A stretch of 47,769 bases of DNA from Bacillota bacterium. GTDB lineage: Bacteria > Bacillota > Clostridia > Saccharofermentanales > UBA5734. The position numbers were made by a program, and so were the translations under genes. Of this stretch, positions 4,270-38,487 are shown piece by piece (positions within the stretch are counted from its first letter, which is position 1; every line of letters starts with the position of its first letter). The notes under the pieces were generated by a model. The model was given only the letters and a program-made list of their open reading frames with translations, was not told the origin of the DNA and did no database searches. The stretch is from contig JAKPNJ010000358.1 of assembly GCA_029548445.1 (NCBI GenBank), forward strand, positions 1-47,769, read 5' to 3'.

Positions 4270-5268
4270 TCACAACCCCGTCAGTCCGGTCCGCTCGATG
4301 CCCTCGACGAAAAACCGCTGCATGGCCAGGAAGAAGGCCAGGATCGGCAGCAGGAGCAGGAGGGACCCGGCGTTGGACAGGACCGATATGGACACGAAAT
4401 CGATGTTCGACCATCCGCCGAAGCTCGTGGAGATCCGGGAAGGCAGGGTGGACAGGAGAATCGGGAGCAGCTGCATCTTCGGCATGTAGAGGGCGGCCGA
4501 GTACAGGTCGTTCCAGTTCCAGACGAAGGAGAAGACCAGGACCGACGCGATGGCCGGCAGGGCGTTGGGCAGCATGACCGAAACGAGGGTGCGGCCGACA
4601 CCGGCCCCGTCCACCCAGGCGGCCTCTTCCATCTCCAGGGGCATGTTGCGGAAAAACTGGCGCATCAGGTAGATGAGAAGCCCGTTTTTTGCCGCCATGC
4701 AGGTGGCGGACAGGAGCAGGATCGGCAGGGGGGTGTTGATCATCGAGACCCGACCGATTCCCAGGGCTGTCAGGAGACCGAAGGGATCAAAGTAGCGAAA
4801 CGTCAGGTAGGAGGTCATGGAGTAGGTCTGGGGCGGTACAATGAGGGTCAGCATGACGACCAGGAAGAGGAATCGGCGGCCCCGGAACTCGAAGCGGGCG
4901 AAGCCGTAAGCCACCAGGATGGCCGCCCCCACCTGCAGCAGCGTCGAGGCGCCGGACAGGAGCACGGTGGTGGACAAGGTCTTCCCATAGTCCAGGAGCG
5001 TCGAGATGCGCTGGAAATTGGCCAGGGTCGGATGTTTGGGAAGCCACCGGATGGTCATGTCGTACAGGTCCTCCCGGGACATGAAGGAGACCGAGAGCTT
5101 GACCAGGATGGGATAGAGGATGATGTACGAGATCCCGACCACCAGGATCGTCCGGACCAGGATCCAGGGCCAGTGCCGGGCCCGGAGCCGGAGCCTGTGC
5201 CCGAACCGGTCCATGGCGGCCCGGAAGGCGGAAGGATGCGGGGCGGGAACCCCTCTACGGTTTGTCAT
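4270..5268 (-). CDS. Carbohydrate ABC permease, MalG type (MalG2, copy A)
   Basis: A 332-residue inner-membrane permease with a basic cytoplasmic N-terminus and about six membrane helices (first TILVVGISYIILYPILVKL). The EAA loop that docks the ATPase is at about residues 214-232 (EEAAWVDGAG followed by SVMLP). It starts inside the end of the upstream permease gene (14-bp overlap), so the two are co-translated and form a heterodimer. The C-terminus RFFVEGIERTGL matches that of the copy-B permease at 38488-39450 (GFITGIERTGI), which supports the pairing of the two module copies. An insertion around residues 155-180 lengthens it compared with copy B. Confidence 0.92.
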   Translation of the reverse strand: MTNRRGVPAPHPSAFRAAMDRFGHRLRLRARHWPWILVRTILVVGISYIILYPILVKLSVSFMSREDLYDMTIRWLPKHPTLANFQRISTLLDYGKTLSTTVLLSGASTLLQVGAAILVAYGFARFEFRGRRFLFLVVMLTLIVPPQTYSMTSYLTFRYFDPFGLLTALGIGRVSMINTPLPILLLSATCMAAKNGLLIYLMRQFFRNMPLEMEEAAWVDGAGVGRTLVSVMLPNALPAIASVLVFSFVWNWNDLYSAALYMPKMQLLPILLSTLPSRISTSFGGWSNIDFVSISVLSNAGSLLLLLPILAFFLAMQRFFVEGIERTGLTGL

Positions 5269-6172
5269 AGTAAAACACCCACCTTGTCAGGAGTAGGGCC
5301 AGGATGCCCACGAGCAGGCCGATCAGAAGGAAGTAGAGCCAGGACATGGCAGCGGACAGGCCGAAATTCTGGTTGCGGAACGCCGTGTTCTGGATGATCG
5401 CAAGGGTTTCGTTGCCTGCAGCGGTGAAGGAATCGATGACCGTATACAGGACGGCGGTCAGCATCAGGGGACTGATCATGGGAAAGGTGATCTTCCAGTA
5501 ATTGTCCCAGGCCGTGGAGCCCTCGATCATGGCGGCTTCGTACACGCTGCGCGGGATGGACTGGAGGCCTGCCAGGAAGATCAGGACCTGGACCCCGGAC
5601 AGCATGACGATGTCGAAAATCCGGGCGGTGGCCGACACGATGTACTCGACGACGGGCCGCGGCAGGCCGGCTTCGATCAGGCTGTACAGGACGGCCAGCC
5701 GGTTGCCGCCGCCGAAGGCCGCGCTTTCCTTGAATCCCTGGGCACTTCCCATGACCGTCTGGAGAAGGTCACCCTGGTCCAGGGCCATCAGCGCCGAGGA
5801 GGCCATGACGATGGGCAGGAAAAAGATGGTCCGGACCAGGAAGCGGCCCCGGAATTTCTGGTTGAGAAGAGTGGCCACGAAGAAACTGAAGAAGGTGATG
5901 ACCGGGACATTGATCAGGGTGTCCAGCAGGGACCGGGCGACGATCTCCCGATAGTTCGCGTCCACGAACAAGGCGTGCTGGTAGTTCCCGAACCCTGCGA
6001 ACGCGAGGGCGATGCCTTTCTCCGTGATGCCGACGCTGCTGAAGCTGAACGCCAGGGACCGGATCATCGGGTAGCCGAAGAACAGCACCACCCCGATGAG
6101 GGTCGGCAGCACGAAGACATACCCGATCCGGGCCTTGGCCTGTTTCAGGGAGACGACGCGCTTCCTCTTCAC
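5255..6172 (-). CDS. Sugar ABC permease, MalF/LplB type (MalF2, copy A)
   Basis: A 305-residue permease whose first helix is typical of LplB proteins (YVFVLPTLIGVVLFFGYP). The EAA motif is at about residue 211 (YEAAMIEGS, then ITFPMISP). The ATG overlaps the stop of the DUF5696 gene as ATGA (6169-6172), which points to translational coupling. About 40 residues are inserted between helices 3 and 4 (around residues 130-180). Its homologue in copy B is the permease at 39447-40334, which also follows a DUF5696 gene with an ATGA overlap. Confidence 0.92.
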   Translation of the reverse strand: MKRKRVVSLKQAKARIGYVFVLPTLIGVVLFFGYPMIRSLAFSFSSVGITEKGIALAFAGFGNYQHALFVDANYREIVARSLLDTLINVPVITFFSFFVATLLNQKFRGRFLVRTIFFLPIVMASSALMALDQGDLLQTVMGSAQGFKESAAFGGGNRLAVLYSLIEAGLPRPVVEYIVSATARIFDIVMLSGVQVLIFLAGLQSIPRSVYEAAMIEGSTAWDNYWKITFPMISPLMLTAVLYTVIDSFTAAGNETLAIIQNTAFRNQNFGLSAAMSWLYFLLIGLLVGILALLLTRWVFYYDKP

Positions 6173-8841
6173 GGACCCACCCCCTTTCGAACTGCAAACC
6201 CGCCTGGGTTCACGAGGATGCCGTCCGCCGACCAGGCGTCGGACCCATAGTTGACATACACCTCGGTTCCGTCTTCGTACGCGGTCCTGTAGACGGATTC
6301 GGCCAGCCGGTCATGGCCGGCCATCCGTGCGGCCGGCAGGTCCCCGAACGCCTCCTGCACATCGAGAACGTCCCGAACCATCCGCTCCTTCCAGTCGCGG
6401 TACCGGCCATTGAAGTACTGGTTGTAGGCCGAATCCTTCGTGAGCCCGGCCTGTTCCGAAAAGACCAGCCAGGAAAGGCCGGCTCCGTACTCCAGGCTCC
6501 GGAGGAACTGCGATCGGTAGTCGCCTGCATAATTAAGCGGCCGCCCGGTAAAGGCAACGGTCCCCCGGATCAGCAGCGGGAGAAAGGGAACCGATTGGTC
6601 GCACAGGTCGAATCCGCTGTCCGAGACCGGCATGGAGGACAGGGACCGGGCGTAGGGAATCGAATACAGGTTGCCGCGGGAGAGGTCCAGGCTCCCGCTT
6701 TCGGACAGGATGGCAAGAGCCTGGAGCACCAGGGACCGGGCCTCCTGGCGGTTGACGGCACGATCGGGATCGAAATCCGACAGCAGCAGGGACCCCGCAT
6801 CCGACAACGAGACCGCGTCCAGGGACAAGTCGTCCAGGGAATCGGCCAGGGAGTTGGCAAAATCCGGCAGGCGGGTCGGCGACAGGAGCCAGGACGGGGG
6901 CCTTTCGCCACTCCGGGCATGGTTCATTGGATTGTAGGCGGACAGGATGGCGATGTCCCGGGACAGGTCCCGGGTGCCATCCCGGACGGAGGCGAATCCG
7001 CTTCCCGAACGGGGGACCGCCTGGAGCGGAAGGCTTGGCACCAATCGGGATCCGGATGCCCGCAGGGTATCCGCCAGGGATGCGAGCCCCCGGGTTCCTC
7101 CCAGCAGGGTCTCCGCCCGGAGCCGGGCGGAGGTTGTGGACAGCAGGCCGCCATTGAATCCCCCGACAAACAGGAGGTCATACCCGGAAACGCCCGACGC
7201 CGCGAGGTCGAGGACCAGGTCCCGGGCCTGCCCGAAGGTCGTCAGCGCTTCTTTCGACAGAACCGGGACCCCCAGCACGAGCCGCTCCTTGGGAACGCTG
7301 CCGAGCAGGCCGACCTGGAGGGGCACCGCCGGGAGGTCCTGCCGACGATCCGCCTCTCCCGGCAACAGGCCTGCGGCGACGAGATGGTCCCGAAGCAGGG
7401 CGGCCATGCCGGAATAGGTCGCGGCTTCCCCGGATCCGAACAGGTACCGGATGGCAATCCGGCCCCGATAGGGCGCGCTTTCGAGAACCGTCAGGCGATC
7501 GGTCTCGTACCCGCTCCCCAGCGAGACCGTGTCTGCCGCGGTCAGCCGAAAGGAAGCCCCGACGAAGTTGTAGTCTCCCGTTACCCCCGACACCGAGGCC
7601 TGGATCTCGGCCAGGGCATCGCCGGACTCGATCCAGGCGATAAAGCCCGTATGGCCGCGCTTCATGCCGAAGGCCGGCACCAGGACATCCTCGGCGCTCC
7701 GGGTCCGGATCGGGGCCCGGATCGAGGGATCGGCCCCGTACACCTGGGCGGCATAGGGATTGACGCCGGTCTTGCCGTTGTTGAGGTAGATCAGGGCGCC
7801 GGTGCCGTCCGGCACAAGCATGTACCCGGTCTCCTGGCGGGATGCGGCGCCGAAGGATTCCAGCAGGTTCATGCGGACGGGCACGACGGAATCCGGATGC
7901 TCCATCCGGTCCAGGGGTACATCCACCCGCAGCGACCGTCCCTCGAGGCGATACTCGAGGGAGAGGCGGAAGGAAGGCCGCTCCGCCAGCTGCACCTCGA
8001 TGCCGTGGAAGAGGTTGTCCTGTGCCAGGTCCTCCGCCGTATAGCCGGCCGCGTCCAGTATCGTGCGGATCCGGCCCAGGATCAGCTCGGAAATGCCGGG
8101 TTTCAGGGCGTACAGGTCGTACTCCTCGACGCGGACATATTTCTCCCGCATGGCGGCCAGGTACTCTTCATCGGTATATCCTTTCAGCGTGATGAAGGAG
8201 TACCGGGACTTCAGCTCCTTGGCCCCCGCCTCGTCCACCCTGGACAGCAGGGCCTCGAAGCGTTCGGCCGTCAACACCTGGGGGACGTCGGCCAGGGTCA
8301 CGGCCGGGTTGTACAGGAGATATCCGACCCGGACGCCCCCCTCCAGGGATTCCGTGTCGACCTGGTTATGGGCGGCTGCATCCGTCCGGCTGTCCATGGT
8401 GCCGGTCCGGCCACTGGCGTCCTGGTACTGGATGACGACCTGGGATCCGATCCTTGCTCCTGAAACCAGGACCCCTTCCGCATCCACGGGGTTCGTGGAC
8501 CAGATCCGGCCCGTCTCCTTGTCGACGACCGCCACGACGCCCGTGCTCCGGTCGACATGGAGCGCCAGGAACTCGTTCTCGGCCGCAAGGACCGCTCCAG
8601 CCGGCAGCTTCTCCCCGGACAGGTCGACGGGCTCCACGGATTGGGCCTTCCGGAAGGACTCGAAGGATGATTCCGAGCCGAGGCCGGATCCGTTCGGCTC
8701 CTCCAGGAGATCGGGATCCAGGACCGACTCCGGATACGGATCGGTCCCCGCCGCCAGGGCGGGACCCAGGACGAAGCCGAACAGCGCCCCCAGCAGGGCG
8801 ATCGCGAGTCCGTATGCCAGGATGGGCCGTATTTTTATCAT
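6169..8841 (-). CDS. DUF5696-type exported protein (copy A), glycosidase-like architecture
   Basis: An 890-residue exported protein. It opens with a signal sequence ending near GPALAAG, without a lipobox Cys. Residues about 85-390 have the repeated-strand pattern of a large beta-sandwich, starting NEFLALHVDRSTGVVAVVDK and GRIWSTNP, the usual N-terminal signature of DUF5696 proteins. The middle (about 480-800) alternates strands and helices like a TIM barrel (LLFVGGFNGGLLS; SLDAVSLSDAG). The C-terminus ends with a YEDGTEVYVNYGSD strand block, matching YENGVTVYVNYGYE in copy B. DUF5696 has no established activity. The overall layout recalls GH101/GH129-type glycosidases, but this is inference. 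It lies between the NHL-YIP1 gene and MalF2, as in copy B. The ATG at 8841 follows AAAGGGGACC. Confidence 0.75.
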   Translation of the reverse strand: MIKIRPILAYGLAIALLGALFGFVLGPALAAGTDPYPESVLDPDLLEEPNGSGLGSESSFESFRKAQSVEPVDLSGEKLPAGAVLAAENEFLALHVDRSTGVVAVVDKETGRIWSTNPVDAEGVLVSGARIGSQVVIQYQDASGRTGTMDSRTDAAAHNQVDTESLEGGVRVGYLLYNPAVTLADVPQVLTAERFEALLSRVDEAGAKELKSRYSFITLKGYTDEEYLAAMREKYVRVEEYDLYALKPGISELILGRIRTILDAAGYTAEDLAQDNLFHGIEVQLAERPSFRLSLEYRLEGRSLRVDVPLDRMEHPDSVVPVRMNLLESFGAASRQETGYMLVPDGTGALIYLNNGKTGVNPYAAQVYGADPSIRAPIRTRSAEDVLVPAFGMKRGHTGFIAWIESGDALAEIQASVSGVTGDYNFVGASFRLTAADTVSLGSGYETDRLTVLESAPYRGRIAIRYLFGSGEAATYSGMAALLRDHLVAAGLLPGEADRRQDLPAVPLQVGLLGSVPKERLVLGVPVLSKEALTTFGQARDLVLDLAASGVSGYDLLFVGGFNGGLLSTTSARLRAETLLGGTRGLASLADTLRASGSRLVPSLPLQAVPRSGSGFASVRDGTRDLSRDIAILSAYNPMNHARSGERPPSWLLSPTRLPDFANSLADSLDDLSLDAVSLSDAGSLLLSDFDPDRAVNRQEARSLVLQALAILSESGSLDLSRGNLYSIPYARSLSSMPVSDSGFDLCDQSVPFLPLLIRGTVAFTGRPLNYAGDYRSQFLRSLEYGAGLSWLVFSEQAGLTKDSAYNQYFNGRYRDWKERMVRDVLDVQEAFGDLPAARMAGHDRLAESVYRTAYEDGTEVYVNYGSDAWSADGILVNPGGFAVRKGVGP

Positions 8842-8856: not shown

Positions 8857-11043
8857 CTACAGCCGGAACAGGATTTCCCGGTAGATCGTCCGGACGAAAG
8901 TCAGGACTTCGCCGGACAACGACAGCACGAGATAGCCGATGAAGACGAGGAACACGATTCCCACCAGGGTCAGGACCATGTTGGCCACGGTTTTCTTCAG
9001 GGTGAATCCATGGGTCTCAAGACAGCCGGCCAACAGGAGGAATCCCGTCCATACCTGCGCCAGGACATCCAGGACGATATAGAACGCGCCCTCCTCGAGG
9101 ATCAGGACATGGCTCAGCATCAGCAGCGGAATCCGGAACAGCACCATGGGCACCAGGGCGTAGGCCGTAAAGACGACGATGTCCCGGAAGGTCCCCTCCC
9201 CTTCCATGAGGGAAGTCAGGCACCAGTTGGCGACACACCACAACAAGAGGGTCATGACAACCTTGGCCACTTCCAGGGCCAGGTTCACATGCCGGATGTC
9301 CACCGGATTGAACAGGAAGCCGGTCATCATGATCCGCAGGACCTGGACCGCGAGGAATCCCAGCAACAGGATGCCGGCCGCAGCCAGGGTCGTCCGGTTC
9401 CGCCTCTCGTGCTTCAGTTCCGCGAATCCCCTGAAGGGATGGACCAGGATGCGGAAGGCGTGGTCCAGGGCCCCCGGCAGGGAGATGTCGGCCTTTCCCG
9501 GTCCGGCCGGGACCGCTCCGCGCCGCCTCCTTCGGTTCGCGAGGAGAACGGCCAGCAGGACCAGGATCGCCGCCGCACTGGCGAACCAGGGAAAGATCCG
9601 GGACACAACCTGCCGCCGGTGCAGCTTGAATGCCTTGGAGTACCCTTCCCGATCCCGTCCCAGCAGGAAACTCGCCATGGCCTCCCGGTAGCGCCGTTCC
9701 CGCATCAGGGCCTTTCCGATCCCCACATGGGCCAGCTCGAGATTGGCATTCAGGGCCCGGACCTGGGTCCAGGTTTCGGCGGCCTGCCCGAAATCGCTGC
9801 CCTGCTGGCTCGTGACGGCATCCAGGATCAGGCGGCCGTAGACAGTCGGCTCGAATACCTGGATCAGGGCGGTTCCGGCATCCAGCACCAGGACATCGTC
9901 GCCCCGGGTGTCCAGGGCCACGGCCGACCGGAAGGTACCGGCCTGGCTGCCATTCTGCCCGAAAACGAACAGCAGGTTCCCGTCCTGGTCGTACCCGAAC
10001 ACCCGTCCCCGCTTGTTGTCGACGGTATAGAAGATGCCGTCTTTCGCTGCCGCCACGTCGAAAAAGACGCTGTACCCGCTTTCGGATCCGACCCAGAGTG
10101 GGCCCTGGTCTCCGATGAGAGGCAGCGTCCGGGTCCGGATCACGTCGATGCCGCCGGGATTCAGGCGCTTGACCGCAGACCCCGACAGATTGTTCTCGAT
10201 CTGGGAAACAGCCATCAGGAATCCGTCGCCCGCCAGGTCCAGGCTCCGGAAATTCACCGGAACGAACAGGCCCATGGCCTCCCGCTGGCGCCGGGTGGCC
10301 ACCGCCCGCCAGAAAAGCTCCCACAGGTTCGGCGACACGAGGTTCGTCCCGACGAACCCGGTAAAGGTTCCGTCGCCCGTCATTTCCACGATGCCCTCGA
10401 TGAGGTTCTCGCCCACCACGTACAGGGTGCCCGCCCTGTCCACCGCCACGCGAAGGGGCTTGTACTCGGTTTTTTCGCCAATCAGGGTCGTGTCGGGCCG
10501 TCCATACTCCCGGACCAGCGCCAGGCTGCGGTCGAAGGACAGGATCCGGCCGTTCCCGGTGTCCGCGACATAGAGGGTTCCGTCTTCCGCGATGCAGACC
10601 CCGCTCGGGGCCGAAAGCGTATCCTCGAGGCCGTCGTTGTCGAAGGTCGACAGGACTTCCGTTTCCCCGGTCGAGAGCCAGGCCAGGACGACCCGGTTGT
10701 TGCCCGTGTCGGCAATGGCCAGCAGGTCCTCCGCCTCGTCCAGGAAGAGGTCCGACGGCGAGGAGAGGGCGCCGACGCCCAGCGAAACGCCGTCCAGGGT
10801 CCTGTCCGGCAGATAGGCCGGCGGGGCGGAGAGAATCGTGGCCTGGTCCGTCGAGTACTGGTATCCCTGGTAGGGAATCGCGCCGGTTTCCAGGGCATGG
10901 GCCGGGCGATGTCCCGCCAGGACAGGGCATACGGCCGCAAGGATCGAGAGAAGGATGGCCGGCAGGGCACGGGAAGCCGGGCGGACGGCCGGGCGGAGAG
11001 CTGGGCGGAGAAACGGGCGGGGGCGCCTGGCTTTCCAGTTCAT
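8857..11043 (-). CDS. NHL beta-propeller-TPR-YIP1 fusion membrane protein (copy A)
   Basis: A 728-residue fusion. After an Arg/Pro-rich N-terminus and a hydrophobic export signal (about 28-45), residues about 95-400 hold NHL-type blades (IADTGNNRVV, VADTGNGRIL, VDNKRGRVFGYDQDG), predicted outside the membrane. TPR-like helices follow (about 415-475, AHVGIGKALMRERRYREAM), then a membrane helix (about 485-505) with a five-Arg stop-transfer end, and a YIP1 domain with four to five helices (about 525-728, LVHPFRGFAELK). The ATG at 11043 is preferred to a GTG two codons upstream because AGGGGGAG lies 5 nt before it. In copy B the same parts are two genes, NHL-TPR-TM and YIP1. The NHL part may bind ligand or protein partners; no enzyme motif is seen. 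Confidence 0.85.
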   Translation of the reverse strand: MNWKARRPRPFLRPALRPAVRPASRALPAILLSILAAVCPVLAGHRPAHALETGAIPYQGYQYSTDQATILSAPPAYLPDRTLDGVSLGVGALSSPSDLFLDEAEDLLAIADTGNNRVVLAWLSTGETEVLSTFDNDGLEDTLSAPSGVCIAEDGTLYVADTGNGRILSFDRSLALVREYGRPDTTLIGEKTEYKPLRVAVDRAGTLYVVGENLIEGIVEMTGDGTFTGFVGTNLVSPNLWELFWRAVATRRQREAMGLFVPVNFRSLDLAGDGFLMAVSQIENNLSGSAVKRLNPGGIDVIRTRTLPLIGDQGPLWVGSESGYSVFFDVAAAKDGIFYTVDNKRGRVFGYDQDGNLLFVFGQNGSQAGTFRSAVALDTRGDDVLVLDAGTALIQVFEPTVYGRLILDAVTSQQGSDFGQAAETWTQVRALNANLELAHVGIGKALMRERRYREAMASFLLGRDREGYSKAFKLHRRQVVSRIFPWFASAAAILVLLAVLLANRRRRRGAVPAGPGKADISLPGALDHAFRILVHPFRGFAELKHERRNRTTLAAAGILLLGFLAVQVLRIMMTGFLFNPVDIRHVNLALEVAKVVMTLLLWCVANWCLTSLMEGEGTFRDIVVFTAYALVPMVLFRIPLLMLSHVLILEEGAFYIVLDVLAQVWTGFLLLAGCLETHGFTLKKTVANMVLTLVGIVFLVFIGYLVLSLSGEVLTFVRTIYREILFRL

Positions 11044-11054
11044 GGCCACTCCCC

Positions 11055-11910: not shown

Positions 11911-12813
11911 TCAGGTCCCCACTTTCGACAGCAGCCGCTGGACCAGCTTGTTCAGCCCCACCATGGCCAGGAAAAGGATCGTGGCGATGGCCGAGGCGTA
12001 TCCCATGTCGAAGCGGAGGATGCCATAGTCCATGATGTGGGTCACGATGGTGTGGGCGCCATAGTCGACGCTGGGGAAGCCGGCCAGGTTGACGCTGACG
12101 TCGGCCACGGCCAGGGCGGCCGTAATCTGGATCACGGCGCCGAACATCAGCTGGGGACGGATGTTGGGAAGCGTGATATACCAGAGTTCCTGCCAGCGGT
12201 TGCGGATGCCGTCGATGGCGCCGGCCTCGTACTGGTCCCGGTCCACGCCCTTGAGCCCCGCGACGAAGGCCAGGAAGCTCGTCCCCAGGCTGAGCCAGAT
12301 CGATACGAGGATGATGACGCCCAGCATCGTCCGGGGATCCTCCAGCCACGCCACGGGGTCCCGGAGCAGGCCCAGCCGCACCAGGAAGCTGTTGATGTAG
12401 CCATAGGCGTCCCCTGAAAACATGACCGCCCAGATCATGTACACGGCCCCCGAAATCGAGGGGGCGTAGAAGACCACGGTCAGGACCGACCGGAGTCCCT
12501 GGCGCAGGTCGTGGATCAGCCAGGCCAGCAACAGGCAGGCCGTGTAGCTGACCGGGCCGGTCAGGAAGGCGAAGACGAAGGTGTTTCGCACGGCAATGAG
12601 GAAGACCTCGTCATTCAGGAGCAGTCGGCGGTAGTTCTCCCAGAAGATGAAGCGGGGCGCCTCCAGCACATTGTAGTAGGTCAGGCTCAGGACCATGGAG
12701 GACAGGACCGGCAGGACCGTAAACACCAGGAACAGCAGGAGATAGGGCGCCAGCAGCAGGTAGGGGGCCCGGTGCTTTCTCAGATACTCCAGGATCGGCC
12801 TACTCCGCATCAT
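11911..12813 (-). CDS. Sugar ABC permease, MalF type (MalF1, copy A)
   Basis: A permease of about 300 residues. The open frame extends upstream to 12885, but those codons lie inside the giant SBP gene. The ATG at 12813 sits 6 nt after GGAAGGGG and gives the protein MMRSRPILEYL; the ATG at 12810 is an alternative. The first helix is APYLLLFLVFTVLPVLSSM, followed by a YYNVLEAPRF motif shared with the permease at 37527 (YFNMLEAPSF). The EAA motif reads YEAGAIDG, with Gly for the usual second Ala, then ITLPNIRP. Its start overlaps the end of the giant SBP gene by 14 bp. Confidence 0.9.
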   Translation of the reverse strand: MMRSRPILEYLRKHRAPYLLLAPYLLLFLVFTVLPVLSSMVLSLTYYNVLEAPRFIFWENYRRLLLNDEVFLIAVRNTFVFAFLTGPVSYTACLLLAWLIHDLRQGLRSVLTVVFYAPSISGAVYMIWAVMFSGDAYGYINSFLVRLGLLRDPVAWLEDPRTMLGVIILVSIWLSLGTSFLAFVAGLKGVDRDQYEAGAIDGIRNRWQELWYITLPNIRPQLMFGAVIQITAALAVADVSVNLAGFPSVDYGAHTIVTHIMDYGILRFDMGYASAIATILFLAMVGLNKLVQRLLSKVGT

Positions 12814-15703
12814 CGCCATCCCCTTCCGCATCCAGTCCCAGCTCGTTCCGCTTGGACCGAATCTCGTCATCGATGACCTCGACATACTCCAGGAGGGTCT
12901 CCTTCGGTTCGTCTTCCTGGAACAGGACCCGGCGGAAGGCGTTGTTCACGTGGCGGCTGGTGTAGTAGCCGCCGGGAACCTCCGGAATGGCCCTGACCGA
13001 GCGCCACTGGTCCTCCAGCACCCCCAGGTCCCGGGCGGTCCAGGGCAGGCTTCGGAACGCTTCCACATTGGCCGTCGGATACCGGGCCGATGTGCCGAGG
13101 AGGCTTTCGATCCGCTGGCCGAAGCGGAGCTGGATCGCATCGGATGTGTACCAGTCGAGGAACGCCCAGGCCTTCTCCTTGGCCCGGCTGTTCCGGAGCA
13201 TCATGCAGGCGTTGCCTCCGCCGGCCACATCCCGGTCCAGGGTGCCGTCCTGCTTCCGGATGCCCGGGACGGGCCCGAAATCCCACAACCCCCAAATTTC
13301 CGGCGCCGACAGGCTCAGCAGGTTGAAGAATGTGTAGTCCTCGATAACCGCCGGCATTTCGCCGGTACGGAACCGGTTGGCCGCATCATAGCGGTAGGGC
13401 AGGCTGTAATCGGTATACAGGGCCGTCCACAGGCGGAAGGCTTCCACGGCCGCGGTCTCGGAGAGGCCGCTGCGGCGGCCGTCATCAATGTAGAAAGTGC
13501 CGTCCAGCTGGTAGAGGAACGTGCCGAGACTGTGGATGATGGGCTGCAGGCCGGCGTTCATGTTGTTCTTCTGGAGTCGGGCGGCGATGGTCCTGAAGTC
13601 ATCCCAGGTGTCCGGCGGCTGGAGGCTAAGCTCCGCGAAGATATCCAGCCGGTAGAAAAACATCGGGAACGTATGGGTTTCGGGCAGGGCGAACACCTTC
13701 CCGTCGAGGGTGAACGGGAGAAGGGCACTGTCCCGGAATCGAGCCGTTACCTGGGGGAATGTCGGGAAAGCCGACAGGTCCTCGACGGCGCTCCGGATGG
13801 CATAATTGATCGGCTCGGCACCGCCGCACTGGAGGGCGACATCGGGTCCCCGGCCGGCTACCGTGGCAGGCAGCAGCTGGTTCTGGACCAGCTTCAGGAC
13901 AACGGGAATCCCGGTTCCCGGCGTGAAATCGTTGTCGATCAGTTCCTTCAGGATACTGGCCTGGTCCCGGCCGGTCTGGACCCAGACCTCGATGGCGCCG
14001 GCGGTGCCGGTTTCCACATCTCCCAGGTCACTGTAGTCGAAAAGGAAGGACGCCAGGAAGGACCGGATTTCGTGGGCCAGGGACCTCAGGAAGCCGGCCC
14101 GGGCGGGGGGCAGCAGGGCATCGGGGCCGTGGATGGCGATGGTGTCGATCTCGATCGGCTGCTGGCGGACGGAGATGACCCAGGTGCCCAGGGCCCCGAT
14201 ATTGGACTTGAAACTCGCCAGGCGGTTCTGGACCTCTTCGGGCCGTTCCGTGAACTCATCCAGCTGGACCGCCAGGGACTGCAGGACGGCACTCAGGCTT
14301 CCCCGCCCGCCTGTCAGGGCCATGAGGTCGACATTCATCTGCCGAAGCGCTTTCGCCTGGTCCGAGAACGCCGCGAACACCTCCGGCAATTTCCGGTCCA
14401 GAAGATAGTCCCGAAACGGATCCGGCACGGCGCCGGTGACCATGACCACTTTCCGGTAGGCCCGGTTCAGGTCCAGGATAATGGCTTCCATCCTGGACAC
14501 CAGGTCGGCGGCCTGTCCCAGCGTGACCTCCAGCCGGATCACGTTGTCTCCCGCCTGGAGCCGGACGGGCGTGGCGGGTCCCCGCCAGTCCCAGTCCAGG
14601 CCATAGGGGAACCGAAGATCCTCCAGGTCCCGGTACTGGACCTCTCCGTTTACGGACAGGCGCCGGGTGCAGAAAGAGCCGCTGAGATAATTCTGGCGGG
14701 ACCGGAAGGACAGCCGGTACAAGCCGTCCTCCGGCACCCGGACGACCCATTCGATCCATTGGCCCGGGGTGGACCAGGCCCGTCCCCCGATGGTGTTCAT
14801 GCGGATCCGGACCGGGTCGTAGGGGAAGGTGGCCGGGGAGGTCCGGTCACTTCGCGCGACCAGGGTCGAGTCCGACTTCGCCCCGGCCTGTTCGGCCTGG
14901 ACCACCTGGAGGTAGGCGCCCATGTCCGTCAGTCCGCCGGATGCGGCATCGTTCAGGAACTCCGTGACGGAGGGGGCCTGGGAGGCTCGGGCGAGGAGGA
15001 TCCGGCGGATGGCCACGGGTTCCCGGACGGACGACAAGGTCAGGCGATGGAGGCCCGCCTCCAGGTGGAAGGACAGGGGGTCGGCCTGGAGGCCGGAGGC
15101 GTCCCGGATCCAGGTCCCCTCCCATCGCGGGTCTTCTTCCAGGAGCGGGATCAGGTCGTTGCCCAGCCTGTCCCGCAGGTCTCCCGGTCGCACGGAATCC
15201 CGGAAGACCCGGGGCAGGACGATGCGTTCGGCTTCCCGGAACGGAACCGTCCCGTCGACCTGCAGGCTTCTCTCCACGAGACCGCCGCGGCCGGGCAGCG
15301 GATAGTACTCGATCCAGGCCTGGTACAGGGCGGTTTCCGGCACGTCGATCTCGAAGGTCGCAAACCCGGTTTCCCCCGTGGCGAGGATGGGGCCGTTCCA
15401 GCCTCCCAGGGACGCAAGGACCGTACAGCCTTCCGCCCCGACCGTTTCGGCCGGCAGGATCTCCAGGCTGCCGGAGGCCGGGGGTGTACCGCCATGGAGG
15501 GCCAGGTAGTCCCGATACGGGATCGCTGTCCCATCCGTCCGGGCCGCTGCGACGGCAGCGAAGGCGGCATCCCCCGGACTGGCAATGTCCGCAGGGATGA
15601 CCAGGGCGGAGGCCACGGGTATCCCCGCCTGGCCGCCCGAGGAAAGCAGGACCAACGCCGCGGCGAGAGCCGCCAGGAGTCGCCTGGAAACAGGGCCGGT
15701 CAT
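12800..15703 (-). CDS. Giant multidomain ABC solute-binding protein (copy A)
   Basis: At 967 residues this is about twice the usual sugar-binding protein length. A signal peptide (1-34, no lipobox) is followed by a beta-sandwich similar to carbohydrate-binding domains (about 80-240: FEIDVPETALYQAWIEYY, LQVDG), a second one (about 300-412: WVVRVPEDGLYRLSF, LSVNG, LQAGDNVIRLEV), a helical segment (about 412-560), and a family-1 SBP domain (about 568-930: IEVWVQTGRDQ, GRGPDVALQCGG, FPMFFYRLDIF, EKAWAFLDWYTSD). The extra N-terminal domains could hold a long glycan or position the SBP away from the membrane; this is inference. The ATG at 15703 overlaps the GH43 stop as ATGA. It is homologous to the gene at the right edge of the window. 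Confidence 0.88.
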   Translation of the reverse strand: MTGPVSRRLLAALAAALVLLSSGGQAGIPVASALVIPADIASPGDAAFAAVAAARTDGTAIPYRDYLALHGGTPPASGSLEILPAETVGAEGCTVLASLGGWNGPILATGETGFATFEIDVPETALYQAWIEYYPLPGRGGLVERSLQVDGTVPFREAERIVLPRVFRDSVRPGDLRDRLGNDLIPLLEEDPRWEGTWIRDASGLQADPLSFHLEAGLHRLTLSSVREPVAIRRILLARASQAPSVTEFLNDAASGGLTDMGAYLQVVQAEQAGAKSDSTLVARSDRTSPATFPYDPVRIRMNTIGGRAWSTPGQWIEWVVRVPEDGLYRLSFRSRQNYLSGSFCTRRLSVNGEVQYRDLEDLRFPYGLDWDWRGPATPVRLQAGDNVIRLEVTLGQAADLVSRMEAIILDLNRAYRKVVMVTGAVPDPFRDYLLDRKLPEVFAAFSDQAKALRQMNVDLMALTGGRGSLSAVLQSLAVQLDEFTERPEEVQNRLASFKSNIGALGTWVISVRQQPIEIDTIAIHGPDALLPPARAGFLRSLAHEIRSFLASFLFDYSDLGDVETGTAGAIEVWVQTGRDQASILKELIDNDFTPGTGIPVVLKLVQNQLLPATVAGRGPDVALQCGGAEPINYAIRSAVEDLSAFPTFPQVTARFRDSALLPFTLDGKVFALPETHTFPMFFYRLDIFAELSLQPPDTWDDFRTIAARLQKNNMNAGLQPIIHSLGTFLYQLDGTFYIDDGRRSGLSETAAVEAFRLWTALYTDYSLPYRYDAANRFRTGEMPAVIEDYTFFNLLSLSAPEIWGLWDFGPVPGIRKQDGTLDRDVAGGGNACMMLRNSRAKEKAWAFLDWYTSDAIQLRFGQRIESLLGTSARYPTANVEAFRSLPWTARDLGVLEDQWRSVRAIPEVPGGYYTSRHVNNAFRRVLFQEDEPKETLLEYVEVIDDEIRSKRNELGLDAEGDGDDAE

Positions 15704-19228: not shown

Positions 19229-19322
19229 TACGGGGCAGGGCCGCCGGGCGGCCGGCCCGGTTTGCCCGGATCCGGCGGATATGGTAGCCTGTTCATGACA
19301 CCATGCGCAGGGAGGAGCGGCG

Positions 19323-20813
19323 ATGCGGGCCTGGGCCGACAAATTCCGGGAAGTCCTTCTTTCGGTCCTGCCGATCGTCCTGCTGGTCCTGGCTCTCAGC
19401 GTTTTCGTCGTTCCCCTGGAACCGATCCGGATCCTGCGATTCGTCCTGGGGGCCCTCTGCCTCATGGCAGGCCTGACGGTCTTCCTGATGGGGGTGGACC
19501 TGGGCATTTCGCCCCTTGGCAGCCGCCTGGGGGAAGCCGTCATTCGGTGGAACCGGGTGTGGGTCGTGGCCATCGCCGGCCTGCTGCTGGGCTTCCTGGT
19601 CTCCATCGCCGAGCCGGATCTCCATATCCTGGGCAACCAGGTGGAACTGGTCACGGGCGGGTGGCTCGGGAAATGGACCCTGGTCCTGACGGTGTCCGCC
19701 GGCATTGCGGTCCTGATGGCCACGGGCCTGCTCCGGGTCCTGTACAACACCCCCCTCTACTGGCTCCTGACGGGCCTGTACGGCCTGATCCTCCTCGTGG
19801 CCCCCTTCGTCTCCCCAGAGTTCCTGGCCATCTCCTTCGACGCCTCCGGCGCCACCACCGGCGCCATGACCGTTCCGTTCATCATGGCCATGGCCCTGGG
19901 CATCGCCCTGAAGAAGAAGGACAGCAAGGCGTCCGAGAAGGACAGCTTCGGCCTGGTGGCCATCGTGTCCGCCGGGGCGATCCTGTCGGTCCTGCTCATG
20001 AGCCTCTTCACACGGGGAATCGACATCGCCGACTCCATCGATTTTCCCGTCGATGACCCGGACTCGATCCTGGGACCTTTCGCCACACAGCTGCAGCACC
20101 AGGCCCTCGAGGCATTCTTCGCGATCCTGCCCCTCTTCCTCGTGTTCCTGGCCGGCCAGTTTCTCTTCCTGAACCTGAAGTCCCGGACCGTGCTTCGGAT
20201 GACCCGCGGGTTCGGTTTCGCCTGGCTGGGACTTGTCCTGATCTTCGTCGGGGCCCAGGCAGGGTTCATGGAGGTAGGCCGGGAGATCGGCACCCGGCTG
20301 GCCAGGGAAGGCCGGACCGGCCTGTTGCTGGGGATCGGGTTCCTCCTGGGGTTCCTGACCATCCTCGCGGAGCCGGCGGTTCATGTGCTGACGCGGCAGA
20401 TCGAGGACGTCACCAGCGGCTCCGTCCGGCGGGCGGCCGTCCTGTCGGCCCTGTCCCTGGGGGTCGGCCTTTCGGTGGGCCTGTCGGTCCTGCGGATCCT
20501 CCTGCCGCCGCTCCAGCTCTGGCATATCCTCCTGCCGGGCTACCTGCTGTCCATCCTGCTGGCCCACATCGGGTCCAAGCTGTTCGTCGGCATCGCCTTC
20601 GATTCCGGCGGCGTGGCCTCCGGGCCCATGACCGCCACCTTTATCCTGGCCTATACCCAGGGAGCAGCCAACGCGTCCCGGAGCGCCAATGTCCTCGTGG
20701 ACGGGTTTGGGGTCATCGCGCTGGTGGCCCTGACGCCCATCATCACCCTGCAGATCCTGGGGCTGCTGTATCGACGGAAGGCCCTGGCCAAAGGAGGGAT
20801 TTCCCGTGGCTGA
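19323..20813 (+). CDS. DUF1538 family integral membrane protein
   Basis: A 496-residue protein with about 12 membrane helices arranged as two repeats. The first half has FLVSIAEPDLHILGNQVE and FDASGATTGAMTVPFIMA; the second repeats these as FLTILAEPAVHVLTRQIE and FDSGGVASGPMTATFILA. This internal duplication with conserved AEP-x-x-H and GxMTxxFI motifs is the hallmark of DUF1538 proteins, thought to be transporters with unknown substrate. GGAGGAGCGGCG precedes the ATG at 19323. The stop overlaps the start of the next gene, a tandem P-II-like protein, by 8 bp. This pairing suggests a membrane transporter gated by a nucleotide-sensing partner, as with AmtB-GlnK; that link is inference. Confidence 0.85.
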   Translation: MRAWADKFREVLLSVLPIVLLVLALSVFVVPLEPIRILRFVLGALCLMAGLTVFLMGVDLGISPLGSRLGEAVIRWNRVWVVAIAGLLLGFLVSIAEPDLHILGNQVELVTGGWLGKWTLVLTVSAGIAVLMATGLLRVLYNTPLYWLLTGLYGLILLVAPFVSPEFLAISFDASGATTGAMTVPFIMAMALGIALKKKDSKASEKDSFGLVAIVSAGAILSVLLMSLFTRGIDIADSIDFPVDDPDSILGPFATQLQHQALEAFFAILPLFLVFLAGQFLFLNLKSRTVLRMTRGFGFAWLGLVLIFVGAQAGFMEVGREIGTRLAREGRTGLLLGIGFLLGFLTILAEPAVHVLTRQIEDVTSGSVRRAAVLSALSLGVGLSVGLSVLRILLPPLQLWHILLPGYLLSILLAHIGSKLFVGIAFDSGGVASGPMTATFILAYTQGAANASRSANVLVDGFGVIALVALTPIITLQILGLLYRRKALAKGGISRG

Positions 20814-21483
20814 GTGTTGTCCGGACGAACTGGACTGGAGGCTCCTGTCCGTGATCGTGGATTGCGGCCGGGGCAGCCGGGTCCTGAAAAACGCGAGGCA
20901 GGCCGGTATCTCCGGAGGGACCATCGTCCTGGGAAGGGGCACCCGGGGCCTGCGGAACCCGGATTGGCTGGAGGATTGCGACGTCCGGAAGGAAATCGTC
21001 CTGATGATTTCAAATCGCGATACGATCCGGGCAGCCTTGGACCGATTGCGCCAAAAGATGGGACTGGAGCGGCCCCACCACGGGATCGCCTTTGTCCTGT
21101 CGGTCCGGGACGTGCTGGGATCCGCCCATTGCCGCGTGGATCGAACGCACTTGCGTGAAGGGAGTGAGGCCACCATGGTCCAGGCCATTTTCGTCATCGT
21201 CGACAAGGGGTTGGCGGAATCCGCCGTGGAAGCCGCGGAAGCCGCCGGGGCCAGGGGCGCCACCATTCTCAACGCCCGGGGCGCCGGAGTACACGAAACC
21301 AGCCGGCTCTTCTCCATGGAAATCGAACCGGAGCGGGAGATCGTGCTGGTCCTGTCGGATGCGGCGTCCTGCCCGGCCATCGCCCAGGCGGTGCGGGATG
21401 CGCTCCGGATGGACGAGCCTGGCCGGGGATTCCTGTTCGTCGTCGATGTTCGCGAGACCGTGGGCCTCTTCGGCCCCGGCTGA
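20806..21483 (+). CDS. Tandem P-II-like regulatory protein
   Basis: A 225-residue cytoplasmic protein made of two P-II-fold halves. Residues about 12-112 start RLLSVIVDCGRGSRVLKNA and contain GISGGTIVLGRGTRG; residues about 124-222 start QAIFVIVDKGLAESAVEAA and contain GARGATILNARGAGVHE. Each half ends with the conserved strand before the T-loop region (EIVLMIS / EIVLVLS) and a G-x-G/A-F-x-F/V-V-x-D/S-V segment. The T-loops are short and no GlnB-type uridylylation Tyr is evident. The start is GTG at 20806, supported by AAGGAGGG seven nt upstream, and overlaps the DUF1538 gene by 8 bp. It probably regulates that membrane protein in response to a nucleotide or similar ligand. Confidence 0.82.
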   Translation: MAECCPDELDWRLLSVIVDCGRGSRVLKNARQAGISGGTIVLGRGTRGLRNPDWLEDCDVRKEIVLMISNRDTIRAALDRLRQKMGLERPHHGIAFVLSVRDVLGSAHCRVDRTHLREGSEATMVQAIFVIVDKGLAESAVEAAEAAGARGATILNARGAGVHETSRLFSMEIEPEREIVLVLSDAASCPAIAQAVRDALRMDEPGRGFLFVVDVRETVGLFGPG

Positions 21484-21520
21484 GGATCGGGGCGAAGCGG
21501 GGACCAGCGCCGGCCGCCGG

Positions 21521-23662
21521 TCAGTCCGACGGCTGGCCTCCCACTAGGACCAGGGCCATCCGATGGGGTGCCAGGGCGATGCGGAAGCCGCCGGGCTGCG
21601 GGCGGATCCAGCCGGGTGGCCAGGCAGCATGGGCCGGATGCGGACCGACCGGGCGTCCCGCCGCCTGGAGAAGCCCCTTGATGGCGAATTGGGAGGATCC
21701 GGTCGTCCCGGTTTCGAGATTGCCGAGCAGGACCGTGGCGGTTCCGTCCGGATACCGCCAGAAATGGAAACAAGCCGGTTTCTGCCAGTCCTCGCCGGTC
21801 CAGCGCAGGGAGGACGGTCCCCACCCGTCCGCACCGAATACCTCCGAGACCGAAAGATAGAGCTGGAGACTGCCGACGGACCGGGTCGTCAGGTGGAGCT
21901 CCATGGGTGTGCCCCATTCGGGCGTTTCCCAGATCACGCAGGGCAGGGATCGGTGTCGGGACAGGACCGGGCCGCCCAGTCCCTCGATGGCCGTCTCCCA
22001 ATCGGGGCTCTCGTCAAGGGTTCGCTGTCGCTGCAGGACCTGCAGTCCCGTCGCGCCGATGCGCCGGGCCAGGGCCCCGGAAACCCGGGCGAACGACGCG
22101 AGGCAGCCGGTCACGGGATCCTCCCTTGTCCGAATCGCGAGGGAGCGCCGCAGGCGTTCGGGCAACAGGGCAGCCCGTCCCATGAACAGGATGGGGATGC
22201 CCTGGCGGAGGCGGGTTTCGAGGGAGGTTTCCAGAACCGGGTCGAGGCAGGCCGGGGCCGGGACCAGGAACCCGTCAGCCTGGATATCCTCCAGCCATTC
22301 GCTTCGGGTGATGGAGAGCACCGGTACGCCGTATTTCATGATCATGGCGGTCCAGTCGTCCATTTCTTCCCCGCGGCTGACAGGTTCCGGATGGTTGAGC
22401 AGGGATTCGAGACCGGGCCGGTGGTAGACGAGACAGGGTCCCCCCGGTACCGGGCCTCTCGCCAGGTCGGCCTGGCAGCGGTCCAGGGTGTTGCACAGGT
22501 GTTGGACCGTCTCGGCCGGAATGAGGTCGGGGCCCCGGTTCATCCAGGAAATGTAGCAGCCCGAGGCACCGGCTACAACGCCGCCCGGGCGCCGCAGCGC
22601 GGCATGGCTGTATGCCCAGATCTCCCAGTCGACTTTGCCTGGATATTGGTGGATGCTGTCCCAGGGCTCCCAGGCATCGAAGGTCTCGATGAGGAACAGG
22701 GATCGGCAGGGGGTACCGGCCAGCATGGCGAGATCCACCAGCAGGTTGGCCAGCTGGAAGGTATAGCCCATGGAGTGGGCGGGCCAGTAATCCTGCCAGG
22801 CGGAGGCCCAGGTCTGGGTGATCCAGAGGTCCAGGCAGCCGGACGCCGCCGTCCGTTCCAGGTCGAATCCGTGGGAGCGCCACTCCTCCATGGACGATGT
22901 GCCGGAGTCATATCCGATCAATACAATGTCGGGCATGGCGGTTTTCAACCGGGTCAGCAGGTCGACCAGGGAATCGGTGTGGGCGCGGGCGGTTTCGGGG
23001 TCCATATACCGGTCCCGGTTCCCTCTCCGGTAGGCCGGCATGAACACACCGTCCCGGAAGACGATGGTGTCGAAGCCCGTGACCTGTCGGAAACCGGCGA
23101 ACTTCGACGTGAAATACTCCGACAGGGTCGGCTCCGGGGATGTGCAGGTCTGCTCGCCCACCGGAACCCGGACACGGGATCCGAAGTCGAGGGTTCCGAA
23201 CCGGGACCGGTCGATCTCCGGATGCTCCGGAAACCAGCGGCCGCGGATATTGTAATGGGCCCGCTCCGTCCGTTCTTCGGTCCGTCCGCTCCACCCTTCG
23301 CAGGTCGCGTCGGCGTCGTACTCCATGGTCTCCCCGCCAAGCAGGATCAGCGCGACATGAAAATCCGCCAGCGAACGCCTGCCGGCTTCCTGGCGAATCT
23401 CCCCCACCAGGGTTCCGAGGCGGGCATACGTCCACGGCTCGTAGGTGGGGGGCTGGCAGGTGGCGATCACACCGTCCGGATCGCCGTTCCAATAGAGGAC
23501 CGAATCGAACAGCCAGCCGACGCACAGGGCCAATCCCTTCCGTGCCGACGGATCCCGGTTCCAGAGAGGGGCCAATCGGTCGAACAGCTGGCGGATCCGG
23601 TCCCCGGGCGCCCCTCCCTGAAACCAATAGAGGTCGATTTCCAGGAAACATGCACGGTTCAT
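21521..23662 (-). CDS. Unrecognised large cytoplasmic protein, TIM-barrel glycosidase-like
   Basis: A 713-residue protein starting MNRACFLEIDLYWFQGG, with an AAAGGACC ribosome site; the open frame extends 110 codons upstream but that part lies in the preceding gene. No signal peptide is present. The first 450 residues alternate hydrophobic strands and helices as in a (beta/alpha)8 barrel, with acidic and aromatic patches at strand ends (FDTIVFRDGVF, IVLIGYDSGT, LDLWITQTWASAWQDYW, SLFLIETFDAWEPWD). A Rossmann-like section (VPVLSITRSEW, IPILFMGRAAL) resembles the trimerisation domain of GH42-type enzymes. A beta-rich C-terminus follows (CFHFWRYPDGTATVLLGNLE). I cannot name a family. As the last gene of the right run it probably acts on imported glycan fragments. 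Confidence 0.65.
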   Translation of the reverse strand: MNRACFLEIDLYWFQGGAPGDRIRQLFDRLAPLWNRDPSARKGLALCVGWLFDSVLYWNGDPDGVIATCQPPTYEPWTYARLGTLVGEIRQEAGRRSLADFHVALILLGGETMEYDADATCEGWSGRTEERTERAHYNIRGRWFPEHPEIDRSRFGTLDFGSRVRVPVGEQTCTSPEPTLSEYFTSKFAGFRQVTGFDTIVFRDGVFMPAYRRGNRDRYMDPETARAHTDSLVDLLTRLKTAMPDIVLIGYDSGTSSMEEWRSHGFDLERTAASGCLDLWITQTWASAWQDYWPAHSMGYTFQLANLLVDLAMLAGTPCRSLFLIETFDAWEPWDSIHQYPGKVDWEIWAYSHAALRRPGGVVAGASGCYISWMNRGPDLIPAETVQHLCNTLDRCQADLARGPVPGGPCLVYHRPGLESLLNHPEPVSRGEEMDDWTAMIMKYGVPVLSITRSEWLEDIQADGFLVPAPACLDPVLETSLETRLRQGIPILFMGRAALLPERLRRSLAIRTREDPVTGCLASFARVSGALARRIGATGLQVLQRQRTLDESPDWETAIEGLGGPVLSRHRSLPCVIWETPEWGTPMELHLTTRSVGSLQLYLSVSEVFGADGWGPSSLRWTGEDWQKPACFHFWRYPDGTATVLLGNLETGTTGSSQFAIKGLLQAAGRPVGPHPAHAAWPPGWIRPQPGGFRIALAPHRMALVLVGGQPSD

Positions 23663-23705
23663 CGGCACAGGTCCTTTCTTCCAGGGCGATCCGGGCCGGG
23701 CCGGT

Positions 23706-26012
23706 TCACGGGACCTGCGTATAGGTGCCGGTCCGGAGAGAGTAGATCCAGGCAGGATCCGTCTCCCCAAGGTCAATGGTCTCGGGCAGCCACTCGAATT
23801 GGCTGTCGGACAGGCGAAGGAAACGGATCGTCGAGTGGCCGTCCTTTCGGACCACGAGGCAGACCTCGTCCACAAAGTCCCCGTCGATGTCGGCCGTGCA
23901 GGCCGCCCGGAATTCCGCGCCGTCCAGGGGAAGTGACTGGGCAATGACCACACGCCCCTTGCGGTCCACCGCTCCGGCCAGGACCAGGGCATCCTCCCGG
24001 GTCGACAGGGCCAGCAGGCCGGCGTCTACAGGCCGGGTTCCATCCTTCAGCATGACATTGCGGGCCCGGACCGGGAGCAGGGTCCGGAAACCTTCCCCGG
24101 GAATCGACTCGCTGCCGAGGAACCGGTCCAGGATCTCACCGGCCGTCGTCCCGTCGACGGGCACATACCGGAACGCCTGCTTCTCCGCGCTCCCCTGGGA
24201 CGCACACTGATAGACCGTCAGCGTGAGGCCGCCGCCTTCCGGCTTGCTTCGCACCACGACGAGGTCGTCGCCGGTGGCATCCAGCGATGGCAGGTACTCC
24301 GGGAACAGGTTCAGCGGGGCTGCGCACACGAAGGTGCCGTCCTCGTTGTCGGCAAAGGTCAGGGTATCCCGGACCAGCAGCCCCTGGAGGTTGTTGTGGA
24401 ATTGTCCCACCACGCCGTCCCCTGTCCTGCGCACGACGAAGAACTCGTCAATGCAGCTGAACGTCAGGTTGATCCGGCTCGCCTGGACCAGGTCGGGGCC
24501 GAACAGGGTGTCCAGGGACCTGTTCTCGCTTTGCTCGATCCACCGCGTGAGGTCATTGTTGTACCGGTCGAAGTACCGTCGTGCCCCCTCGGCATCGATG
24601 ACCCCCAGGGTCGCCTGGTAATAGCGCTTGGCCGGGCTCGTCTCCAGGTTCCGGTTGAATTTCCAGCGGTCGGTATCGAAGTAATCCGACAGGGTGGTGG
24701 AGGGATTGTCCGGATTGTCCGGATCCAGCAGGTAGGCGACCAGCCGCTTCAGCACGAGGCGGGCCGAGTAGTCCGGAGCCGTTTCGTACTGGTTCGAAAG
24801 GTCGCGGAGAGGCCGGAAGCGGGGGTTGTTCGTGTTGAACAAGTACTGGGGCGGTTCGAACTGGACCATCCGGGCCCCGTTTTCAAGGGCCCGCAGGGTG
24901 AACGCCGCCATGAGTTCAGCCGGCATGTCCAGCTCCGGATACAGGTACCACTTGGTCGCCGGCGACGTGGTGCCGGGACGGACCCAGGACAGCGACGCGC
25001 AGTCCATCTCCTGCCAGAACCAGCTCTGGACGCTTTCTCCATAGCCGGCTCCCTTGTACCCCTTAAGCAGGAAGGTGTCGGTCACGTACTGGTGCACCGG
25101 CCAGCCGTTGTTGGCCCAATTGAGGGTCAGGCGGTCGGTGCCCAATTTCCCGATGGCATAGTCCACCCAGTCCAGCCAGAAGGCCTTGGGTTTGTAGACC
25201 TTGTCCGGCTTCTCATAGATCAGGTTCCAGCTGTGGTCGCTCCACACCAGGTCCAGGCCGCAGGACGCCGCTGCATCGATGATGCCTTTCACAACCCGTT
25301 CTTCCACGACCCAGGCGTGGGAGTATTGTTCCTTGCCGGCCGCCCGGTCCGCCGTCCCGATGTCGTGGGACCCGATCAGCTCATGGAAGCGGATGCCCTC
25401 GAACGTATCCGGATAGGCGGCTTTCAGGGCTTCCATGGTGTCCATGTCCATGGGCAGGCTCCGGCAGGGAATGCCGTCCCCAAACCGCAGCTCGGCTGGC
25501 GGGAGCTTGGCCGCCTCCCCGTTCTGGTTCGTCCGGATGCCCGAGGAGTGCATCTCCAGGTAGACCGCCACCTTTTCTTCCCCGAAGAAGCGGAGCACCT
25601 CGTGGAGACTGGGCGAAATCCGGTCCAGGGGATCGCCGGCCTCCCGTTCTCCATACCCCTCGGCCTTGTAATGGTGGGTCGGGTAGACCAGCACAGCGAG
25701 GCGGTATCGGGCTCGCAACGGGTCCAGGCCCTCCAGGATGTTGGCCAGCTGGGTCCGCAGGGCGTCGAAATCCTTCCCGTGGGCCGATGTCACTTCCACG
25801 CCGCCCAGGCCTTCATCGATCTCGAAGAGAAGGATCGGCTTCTCGTCCTCCGGTATCTCGGTCGGCCTGGCGGTCGGCTCGGGCGTTCTCGTCGGCGGGG
25901 CCTGGGTGGGAGTCGGCTGGCTGCATCCCACGGGCAGGATCGCCAGGGTCAGGATCGCCAGGCAGGCGGTCCTCAGGATGCGGAGGACGGAGCGGATGAA
26001 TGGTTGCGGCAT
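23706..26012 (-). CDS. Surface lipoprotein, putative glycosidase (paralogue of the 28843 gene)
   Basis: A 768-residue lipoprotein with a lipobox at Cys30 (AILPVGC) and a Thr/Pro linker. The ATG at 26012 has AAGGAGACACACC before it; an ATG at 26030 overlaps the GH35 stop as ATGA and is an alternative adding six residues. The catalytic-looking part shares ordered motifs with the 784-residue neighbour: LLFEIDEGLGG, VYLEMHSSGIRTNQNGE, PMDMDTMEALKA, IRFHELIGSHD, LVWSDHSWNL, LNWANNGWP, SVQSWFWQEMD and MVQFEPPQYLFNT. The conserved Glu, Asp and Trp residues suggest a TIM-barrel glycosidase, loosely recalling GH98, which I cannot confirm. The C-terminus (FRAACTADIDGDFVDEVCLV) resembles an FG-GAP/integrin-like Ca-binding repeat. 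Confidence 0.7.
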   Translation of the reverse strand: MPQPFIRSVLRILRTACLAILTLAILPVGCSQPTPTQAPPTRTPEPTARPTEIPEDEKPILLFEIDEGLGGVEVTSAHGKDFDALRTQLANILEGLDPLRARYRLAVLVYPTHHYKAEGYGEREAGDPLDRISPSLHEVLRFFGEEKVAVYLEMHSSGIRTNQNGEAAKLPPAELRFGDGIPCRSLPMDMDTMEALKAAYPDTFEGIRFHELIGSHDIGTADRAAGKEQYSHAWVVEERVVKGIIDAAASCGLDLVWSDHSWNLIYEKPDKVYKPKAFWLDWVDYAIGKLGTDRLTLNWANNGWPVHQYVTDTFLLKGYKGAGYGESVQSWFWQEMDCASLSWVRPGTTSPATKWYLYPELDMPAELMAAFTLRALENGARMVQFEPPQYLFNTNNPRFRPLRDLSNQYETAPDYSARLVLKRLVAYLLDPDNPDNPSTTLSDYFDTDRWKFNRNLETSPAKRYYQATLGVIDAEGARRYFDRYNNDLTRWIEQSENRSLDTLFGPDLVQASRINLTFSCIDEFFVVRRTGDGVVGQFHNNLQGLLVRDTLTFADNEDGTFVCAAPLNLFPEYLPSLDATGDDLVVVRSKPEGGGLTLTVYQCASQGSAEKQAFRYVPVDGTTAGEILDRFLGSESIPGEGFRTLLPVRARNVMLKDGTRPVDAGLLALSTREDALVLAGAVDRKGRVVIAQSLPLDGAEFRAACTADIDGDFVDEVCLVVRKDGHSTIRFLRLSDSQFEWLPETIDLGETDPAWIYSLRTGTYTQVP

Positions 26013-26026
26013 GGTGTGTCTCCTTT

Positions 26027-38465: not shown

Positions 38466-38487
38466 GATGCTTCTTCCCTCCTTCATG

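Follow-up and report, generated by a model that had tools for sequence, protein, structure and literature searches.

The window analysed here, a stretch of 47,769 nucleotides, corresponds to a complete contig in a genome of 3.03 Mb assembled in 359 contigs, and it carries two copies, A and B, of a gene cassette, both on the minus strand. In copy A, the cassette comprises, in reading direction, a large binding protein (SBP) of about 970 aa (12800-15703), two permeases, P2 (11911-12885) and P1 (11055-11909), a gene that joins NHL, TPR, membrane-helix and YIP1 parts in one protein (8857-11049), a secreted or anchored DUF5696 protein (6169-8841), and a second pair of permeases (5255-6172 and 4270-5268). 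In the large SBP, residues 560-940 have an SBP_bac fold and the N-terminal half is galactose-binding/CBM35-like; in the SBPs of this length (the copy A protein and those of loci L018, L021 and L024) a coiled-coil-like stretch precedes the binding fold. Glycoside hydrolase genes (GH39-like, GH43, GH35, GH38-like and GxGYxYP) flank and separate the two copies. The minus strand also has, at 19293-26927 inside this glycan-utilisation region, three long ORFs (902, 823 and 1073 aa) that overlap one another and lack any Pfam match.

The fusion gene of copy A encodes 730 aa from a GTG start, in a reading frame that is uninterrupted over its whole length, and the ATG at 11043 corresponds to M3, two codons inside the GTG. 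The earlier note had read this gene as propeller, TPR helices, membrane helix and YIP1 in a single chain, and the open frame, the Pfam matches and an AlphaFold2 model all bear this out, the order of parts being a signal/anchor helix, a six-bladed NHL propeller, TPR, one membrane helix and a five-helix YIP1 domain, all encoded on the minus strand. The propeller, predicted to be extracytoplasmic, covers residues ~60-401 (9847-10872); it is recognised by Pfam NHL (E = 8e-17), and both the model and Foldseek agree on it, the latter finding the NHL propellers of TRIM71/Thin with a TMt of 0.8. The TPR helices (residues 403-482, 9604-9843), identified by consensus-TPR profile matches and present as helices in the model, would also lie outside. 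They are followed by a single transmembrane helix (residues 483-501, 9547-9603), for which the RRRRR directly after it indicates an out-to-in orientation. The cytoplasmic linker to YIP1 (9469-9546) is modelled with low confidence (pLDDT down to 49 near residues 511-520) and lies where the gene boundary is found in split copies; it measures 35 aa from the membrane helix to the start of YIP1, the linkers of other fused proteins having 19-56 aa. The YIP1 domain (8860-9468) matches Pfam Yip1 at residues 533-704 (E = 3e-15), shows five hydrophobic segments in the hydropathy profile, in line with five membrane helices, and ends in a long C-terminal helix (residues 684-729). The PF04893 Yip1 scores of copies A and B are 56.9 and 31.9 bits, both above the curated cut-off of 28.6, and their NHL repeats score 60.8 and 60.4 bits against a cut-off of 20.

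The AlphaFold2 model of the copy A protein has a mean pLDDT of 90.9 and a pTM of 0.84, with domain packing judged from the pTM alone and 17 of the 127 alignment rows paired. In this model one 43-residue helix (467-509) spans from the TPR through the membrane, and the last YIP1 helix, 46 residues long, protrudes past the membrane. Among the near-invariant residues are R478, next to the NHL membrane helix on its outer side, and E725 and R729, with which the last YIP1 helix ends. N608, G617, P634, E653 and H680 are conserved polar residues of the YIP1 membrane domain.

In copy B, the same parts are encoded by two genes of the minus strand, one for an NHL-TPR-TM protein of 487 aa (43241-44704) and the other for a YIP1 protein of 207 aa (42621-43244). 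The stop codon of the first (TGA, 43241-43243) and the start codon of the second (ATG, 43242-43244) share an exact ATGA at 43241-43244, as the earlier note had stated; the ORF list gives an earlier ATG for YIP1 (43379), but homology begins only at the ATGA overlap. The neighbouring genes of copy B are a large SBP truncated by the contig end (45634-47769), permease P1 (44720-45841 as an ORF, its true start probably being internal), and a DUF5696 protein, identified by Pfam and putatively a lipoprotein (40331-42610). The cassette is rearranged in this copy, the P2-type permease (37527-38486, 46.8% identical to P2 of copy A) being absent between SBP and P1 and sitting beyond DUF5696 and the second permeases. 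Copies A and B had been presented as a fusion/split pair; they are, rather, distant paralogues with 28-30% identity and not before and after forms of one gene. This identity, together with their distant positions in the tree, rules out a recent duplication in which A became fused and B split.

In the whole genome, Yip1 and DUF5696 profile matches occur at 11 and 14 places, respectively, and 12 paralogous cassettes are found, with NHL and YIP1 fused in seven (a contig edge truncates one of these at the 5' end) and split in five. The closest fused/split pair within the genome is formed by L017 (fused) and L021 (split), which are fully supported sisters with 49% identity. A wider search for fused and split homologues, which the earlier note had proposed, brought the collection to 211 pairs, 95 fused and 116 split. 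These numbers bear on the idea that the copy A fusion is an artefact of sequencing or assembly, as might arise in an assembly fragmented into 359 contigs, and frameshifted copies do exist in public data: in locus L117 (Paenibacillus sp. OVF10), excluded from our counts, the SBP, NHL and DUF5696 genes are in pieces, probably owing to sequencing frameshifts. However, six more fused copies, one of them that at the contig edge, are found on other contigs of the same genome and dozens in other genomes, with similar linkers, and because of this recurrence we rule out an error as the cause, its probability being practically nil.

A tree of 88 NHL and YIP1 pairs, 17 of them fused, requires at least 8 changes between the fused and split states, 6 of which are forced by strongly supported branches, and the set of 211 pairs requires at least 14, of which 7 are forced. 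The forced counts are the ones to rely on, since long branches make some placements unsure, and the trees give no direction for these changes. NHL and YIP1 have thus been joined or separated many times in evolution, which argues that they work as one part. They are also the only gene pair of the cassette ever fused in the 88 cassettes; SBP-P2 and YIP1-DUF5696 are barred from fusing by topology, and P2-P1 and P1-NHL could fuse. Among 71 split loci, nearly all have a YIP1 start that overlaps the NHL stop or directly adjoins it, the overlap being exactly 4 nt in 25 of them, which suggests translational coupling.

This tight arrangement could also be taken to mean that NHL and YIP1 are mere neighbours and that a fusion, arising by chance loss of a stop codon in an overlapping pair, says nothing about interaction, given that in most split copies the two genes share 4 nt or slightly more, so that a small indel could fuse them. 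We consider this very improbable, since the other adjacent pairs were never fused in the 88 cassettes, and topology and linker length are conserved. In addition, the fused form is dominant in family f69, where all 9 of 9 genomes are positive, with up to ten copies each that are nearly all fused, and where 43 of 46 among the matches listed have frames of 700 aa or more.

Hydropathy analysis of the 88 pairs gives a consistent topology: in 78 cases the NHL part has a single signal/anchor segment at its N-terminus and a single membrane helix at its C-terminus, a strongly positive flank follows this helix, and YIP1 mostly has five helices. This pattern places the propeller and TPR outside and both the NHL C-terminus and the YIP1 N-terminus inside, which makes a fusion topologically simple; in split copies a tail of 7-25 aa follows the NHL membrane helix, to be set beside the fused linkers given above. 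Direct contact between the NHL part and YIP1 is supported by the confident model of the fused protein (pTM 0.84). A direct-coupling analysis of co-evolution between the TPR/TM part and YIP1 in the 211 pairs gave 7 of the 10 top pairs consistent with topology, compared with 3.6 expected (p = 0.03), with scores no higher than those of the propeller-YIP1 controls and an intra-YIP1 positive control that was not significant. The signal was lost with shuffled pairing, but in view of these controls we give it no weight. The earlier note had called copies A and B direct evidence that NHL and YIP1 act together; joint action is upheld by the repeated fusion and fission, by the pair being the only one fused and by the perfect co-occurrence described below, but for contact the wording was too strong, a fusion being a sign of functional linkage. 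That NHL-TPR-TM and YIP1 form one unit appears to us highly probable.

The cassette has a fixed order, with the large SBP (CBM-SBP) followed by P2, P1, NHL, YIP1, DUF5696 and then usually two more permeases. The upstream permease served as the anchor in a scan of 84,980 species genomes, making the test of the neighbourhood independent of NHL and YIP1 and thereby avoiding circularity. Among the best 80 loci, which were examined and come from Paenibacillus, Thermobacillus, Lachnospiraceae, Oscillospiraceae, Halanaerobiales, Treponema and Acholeplasmataceae records, NHL, YIP1 and DUF5696 are present in 77 of the 77 that have enough downstream sequence. The cassette is common to many Bacillota, some Spirochaetes and Acholeplasma relatives. 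In a sample anchored on DUF5696, YIP1 lies directly upstream in 30 of 30 loci, and in a sample of 299 genomes from the phylum a cassette-type YIP1 and DUF5696 occur in exactly the same 26 genomes, the overlap of DUF5696-positive genomes with this sample being read from record numbering. Copies can be numerous, with 68 of 100 genomes positive in the family of genome G373 (up to eight copies) and a maximum of 17 copies in one genome. Weak Yip1 matches outside the cassette in relatives (L034-L043, L046 and L047) belong to a different Yip1 type, and some NHL genes are longer (593-631 aa in L131, L148 and L135), suggesting an inserted domain. A literature search, which covered few subscription papers, yielded nothing on the cassette and nothing on DUF5696. 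A role in defence was rejected, as PADLOC gave no meaningful match.

The SBP and the two BPD_transp_1 permeases, which are of the UgpAE/MalFG type, assign the system by sequence to the CUT1 type of carbohydrate ABC importers. No ATPase gene is found within the cassette, and the single OB_MalK match of the genome lies outside the cassettes (contig C312:2613-2783, L267); one such match for 12 cassettes suggests that one ATPase is shared. The DUF5696 protein of copy A (Pfam E = 7e-157) has a GH129-like fold: its model (pTM 0.87) matches 5opq/5wzn (GH129 alpha-N-acetylgalactosaminidase, 3,6-anhydro-galactosidase) over the whole length, with a TMt of about 0.7, and the GH129 profile matches DUF5696 with E = 1e-11. 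In the DUF5696 alignment, D371, D689 and E784 are the only positions at which more than 85% of rows have an acidic residue. Most copies carry their own signal or lipoprotein anchor, and from the fold match over the whole length and the profile support DUF5696 is most likely a surface alpha-glycosidase.

We infer from the gene context and from a precedent that NHL-YIP1 is probably an accessory subunit of a glycan ABC importer. The precedent is YknW, which belongs to the Yip1 family and modulates how the ABC exporter YknXYZ is assembled (PMC4887032), an example of a bacterial Yip1 acting in support of an ABC transporter. In the proposed arrangement, NHL-TPR-TM and YIP1 would each be half of a single membrane subunit, synthesised as one chain or as two translationally coupled chains, with the propeller and TPR outside the membrane, one helix leading inward, and a cytoplasmic tail running into the N-terminus of the five-helix YIP1. 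This subunit would be an obligatory accessory of an importer consisting of the CBM-bearing SBP, two MalF/MalG-like permeases (often with a second pair), DUF5696 as a surface glycosidase with a GH129-like fold, and probably one shared ATPase of the MalK/MsiK type. The propeller would most likely dock the binding protein, the glycan or DUF5696 beside the permeases, and YIP1 may pack on the permease helices, holding or regulating the complex.

Operon conservation alone would equally fit a regulatory or a maturation role. In the latter case, NHL-YIP1 would act outside the transporter, as a membrane factor for maturation or anchoring of the secreted DUF5696 or the large SBP, with TPR and propeller in a chaperone-like role on a YIP1 membrane base. 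The position of YIP1 directly upstream of DUF5696 in every locus of the DUF5696-anchored sample, the perfect co-occurrence of the two, and the frequent use of TPR and propellers as docking folds all agree with this. However, the SBP and permeases are just as constant in the cassette and most DUF5696 copies have a signal or lipoprotein anchor of their own, and we regard such a factor as unlikely. We give still less weight to a sensor, in which the propeller would bind glycan or loaded SBP and YIP1 would relay a signal gating transport or expression. An extracellular binding fold on a multi-helix membrane domain with the conserved residues N608 to H680 listed above would suit this function, and a review that reports prokaryotic YIPF members to be without reported function suggests transporter or receptor roles for the family (PMC6682643), but none of the fused or split copies has a cytoplasmic signalling domain, the split tail being only as short as indicated above.

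The rare hint for the role of bacterial YIP1 announced in the earlier note is real and, under the importer reading, can be specified as an accessory of a carbohydrate ABC importer, although YknW shows that it has a precedent. Hundreds of bacterial YIP1 genes, members of a family about whose function hardly anything is known, are linked to a single cassette in which gene order and partner are constant, and a testable job in glycan uptake is suggested for them. The cassette points to an extensive, uncharacterised system of glycan import in bacteria of the gut, rumen and soil, DUF5696 receives a GH129-like fold, and the natural fusion could be used directly as a construct in structural studies. 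More tentatively, and as a possibility rather than an expectation, the extracellular NHL propeller on its YIP1 bundle may be a stoichiometric subunit of the ABC importer in a glycan-uptake machine of Bacillota, Treponema and Acholeplasmataceae, present in 10-17 substrate-specific copies per genome, somewhat like the SusCD pairs of Bacteroidota. If so, bacterial YIP1 would gain a defined molecular role, and YIP1 bundles would be ancient adaptors for membrane complexes.

Among known systems, the cassette resembles the MalFGK2/MsiK-type CUT1 importers of Bacillota in having an SBP_bac_1/8 protein and two MalF/MalG/UgpAE-like permeases, with no ATPase in the cassette and an OB_MalK match elsewhere. 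In contrast to these importers, its SBP of ~970 aa carries additional CBM-like domains, a second pair of permeases is often present, and the NHL-TPR-TM/YIP1 subunit and the DUF5696 enzyme are obligate. DUF5696 matches the fold of the GH129 enzymes NagBb and ZgGH129 over its whole length, yet with only 12-14% identity. The cassette YIP1 shares with the eukaryotic YIPF proteins (Yip1/Yif1) five membrane helices and a cytoplasmic N-terminus, and a Y-x-L-x-P in its third helix resembles YIPF motif 3, whereas motifs 1 and 2 are not recognisable, the sequence is distant, there is no Rab/COPII context, and an extracytoplasmic propeller is fused to it. A Yip1 protein adjoining ABC transport genes is also found in leaderless/circular bacteriocin clusters (PMC11580447), where the context is, however, one of immunity or export, with neither propeller nor DUF5696. 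In YknWXYZ, the SDP exporter of Bacillus, a Yip1 membrane protein likewise stands alongside an ABC transporter whose assembly it modulates (PMC4887032), but no fusion of YknW with a propeller is described there, and YknWXYZ is a MacB-type exporter with a membrane-fusion protein, whereas the cassette combines importer permeases with glycan enzymes.
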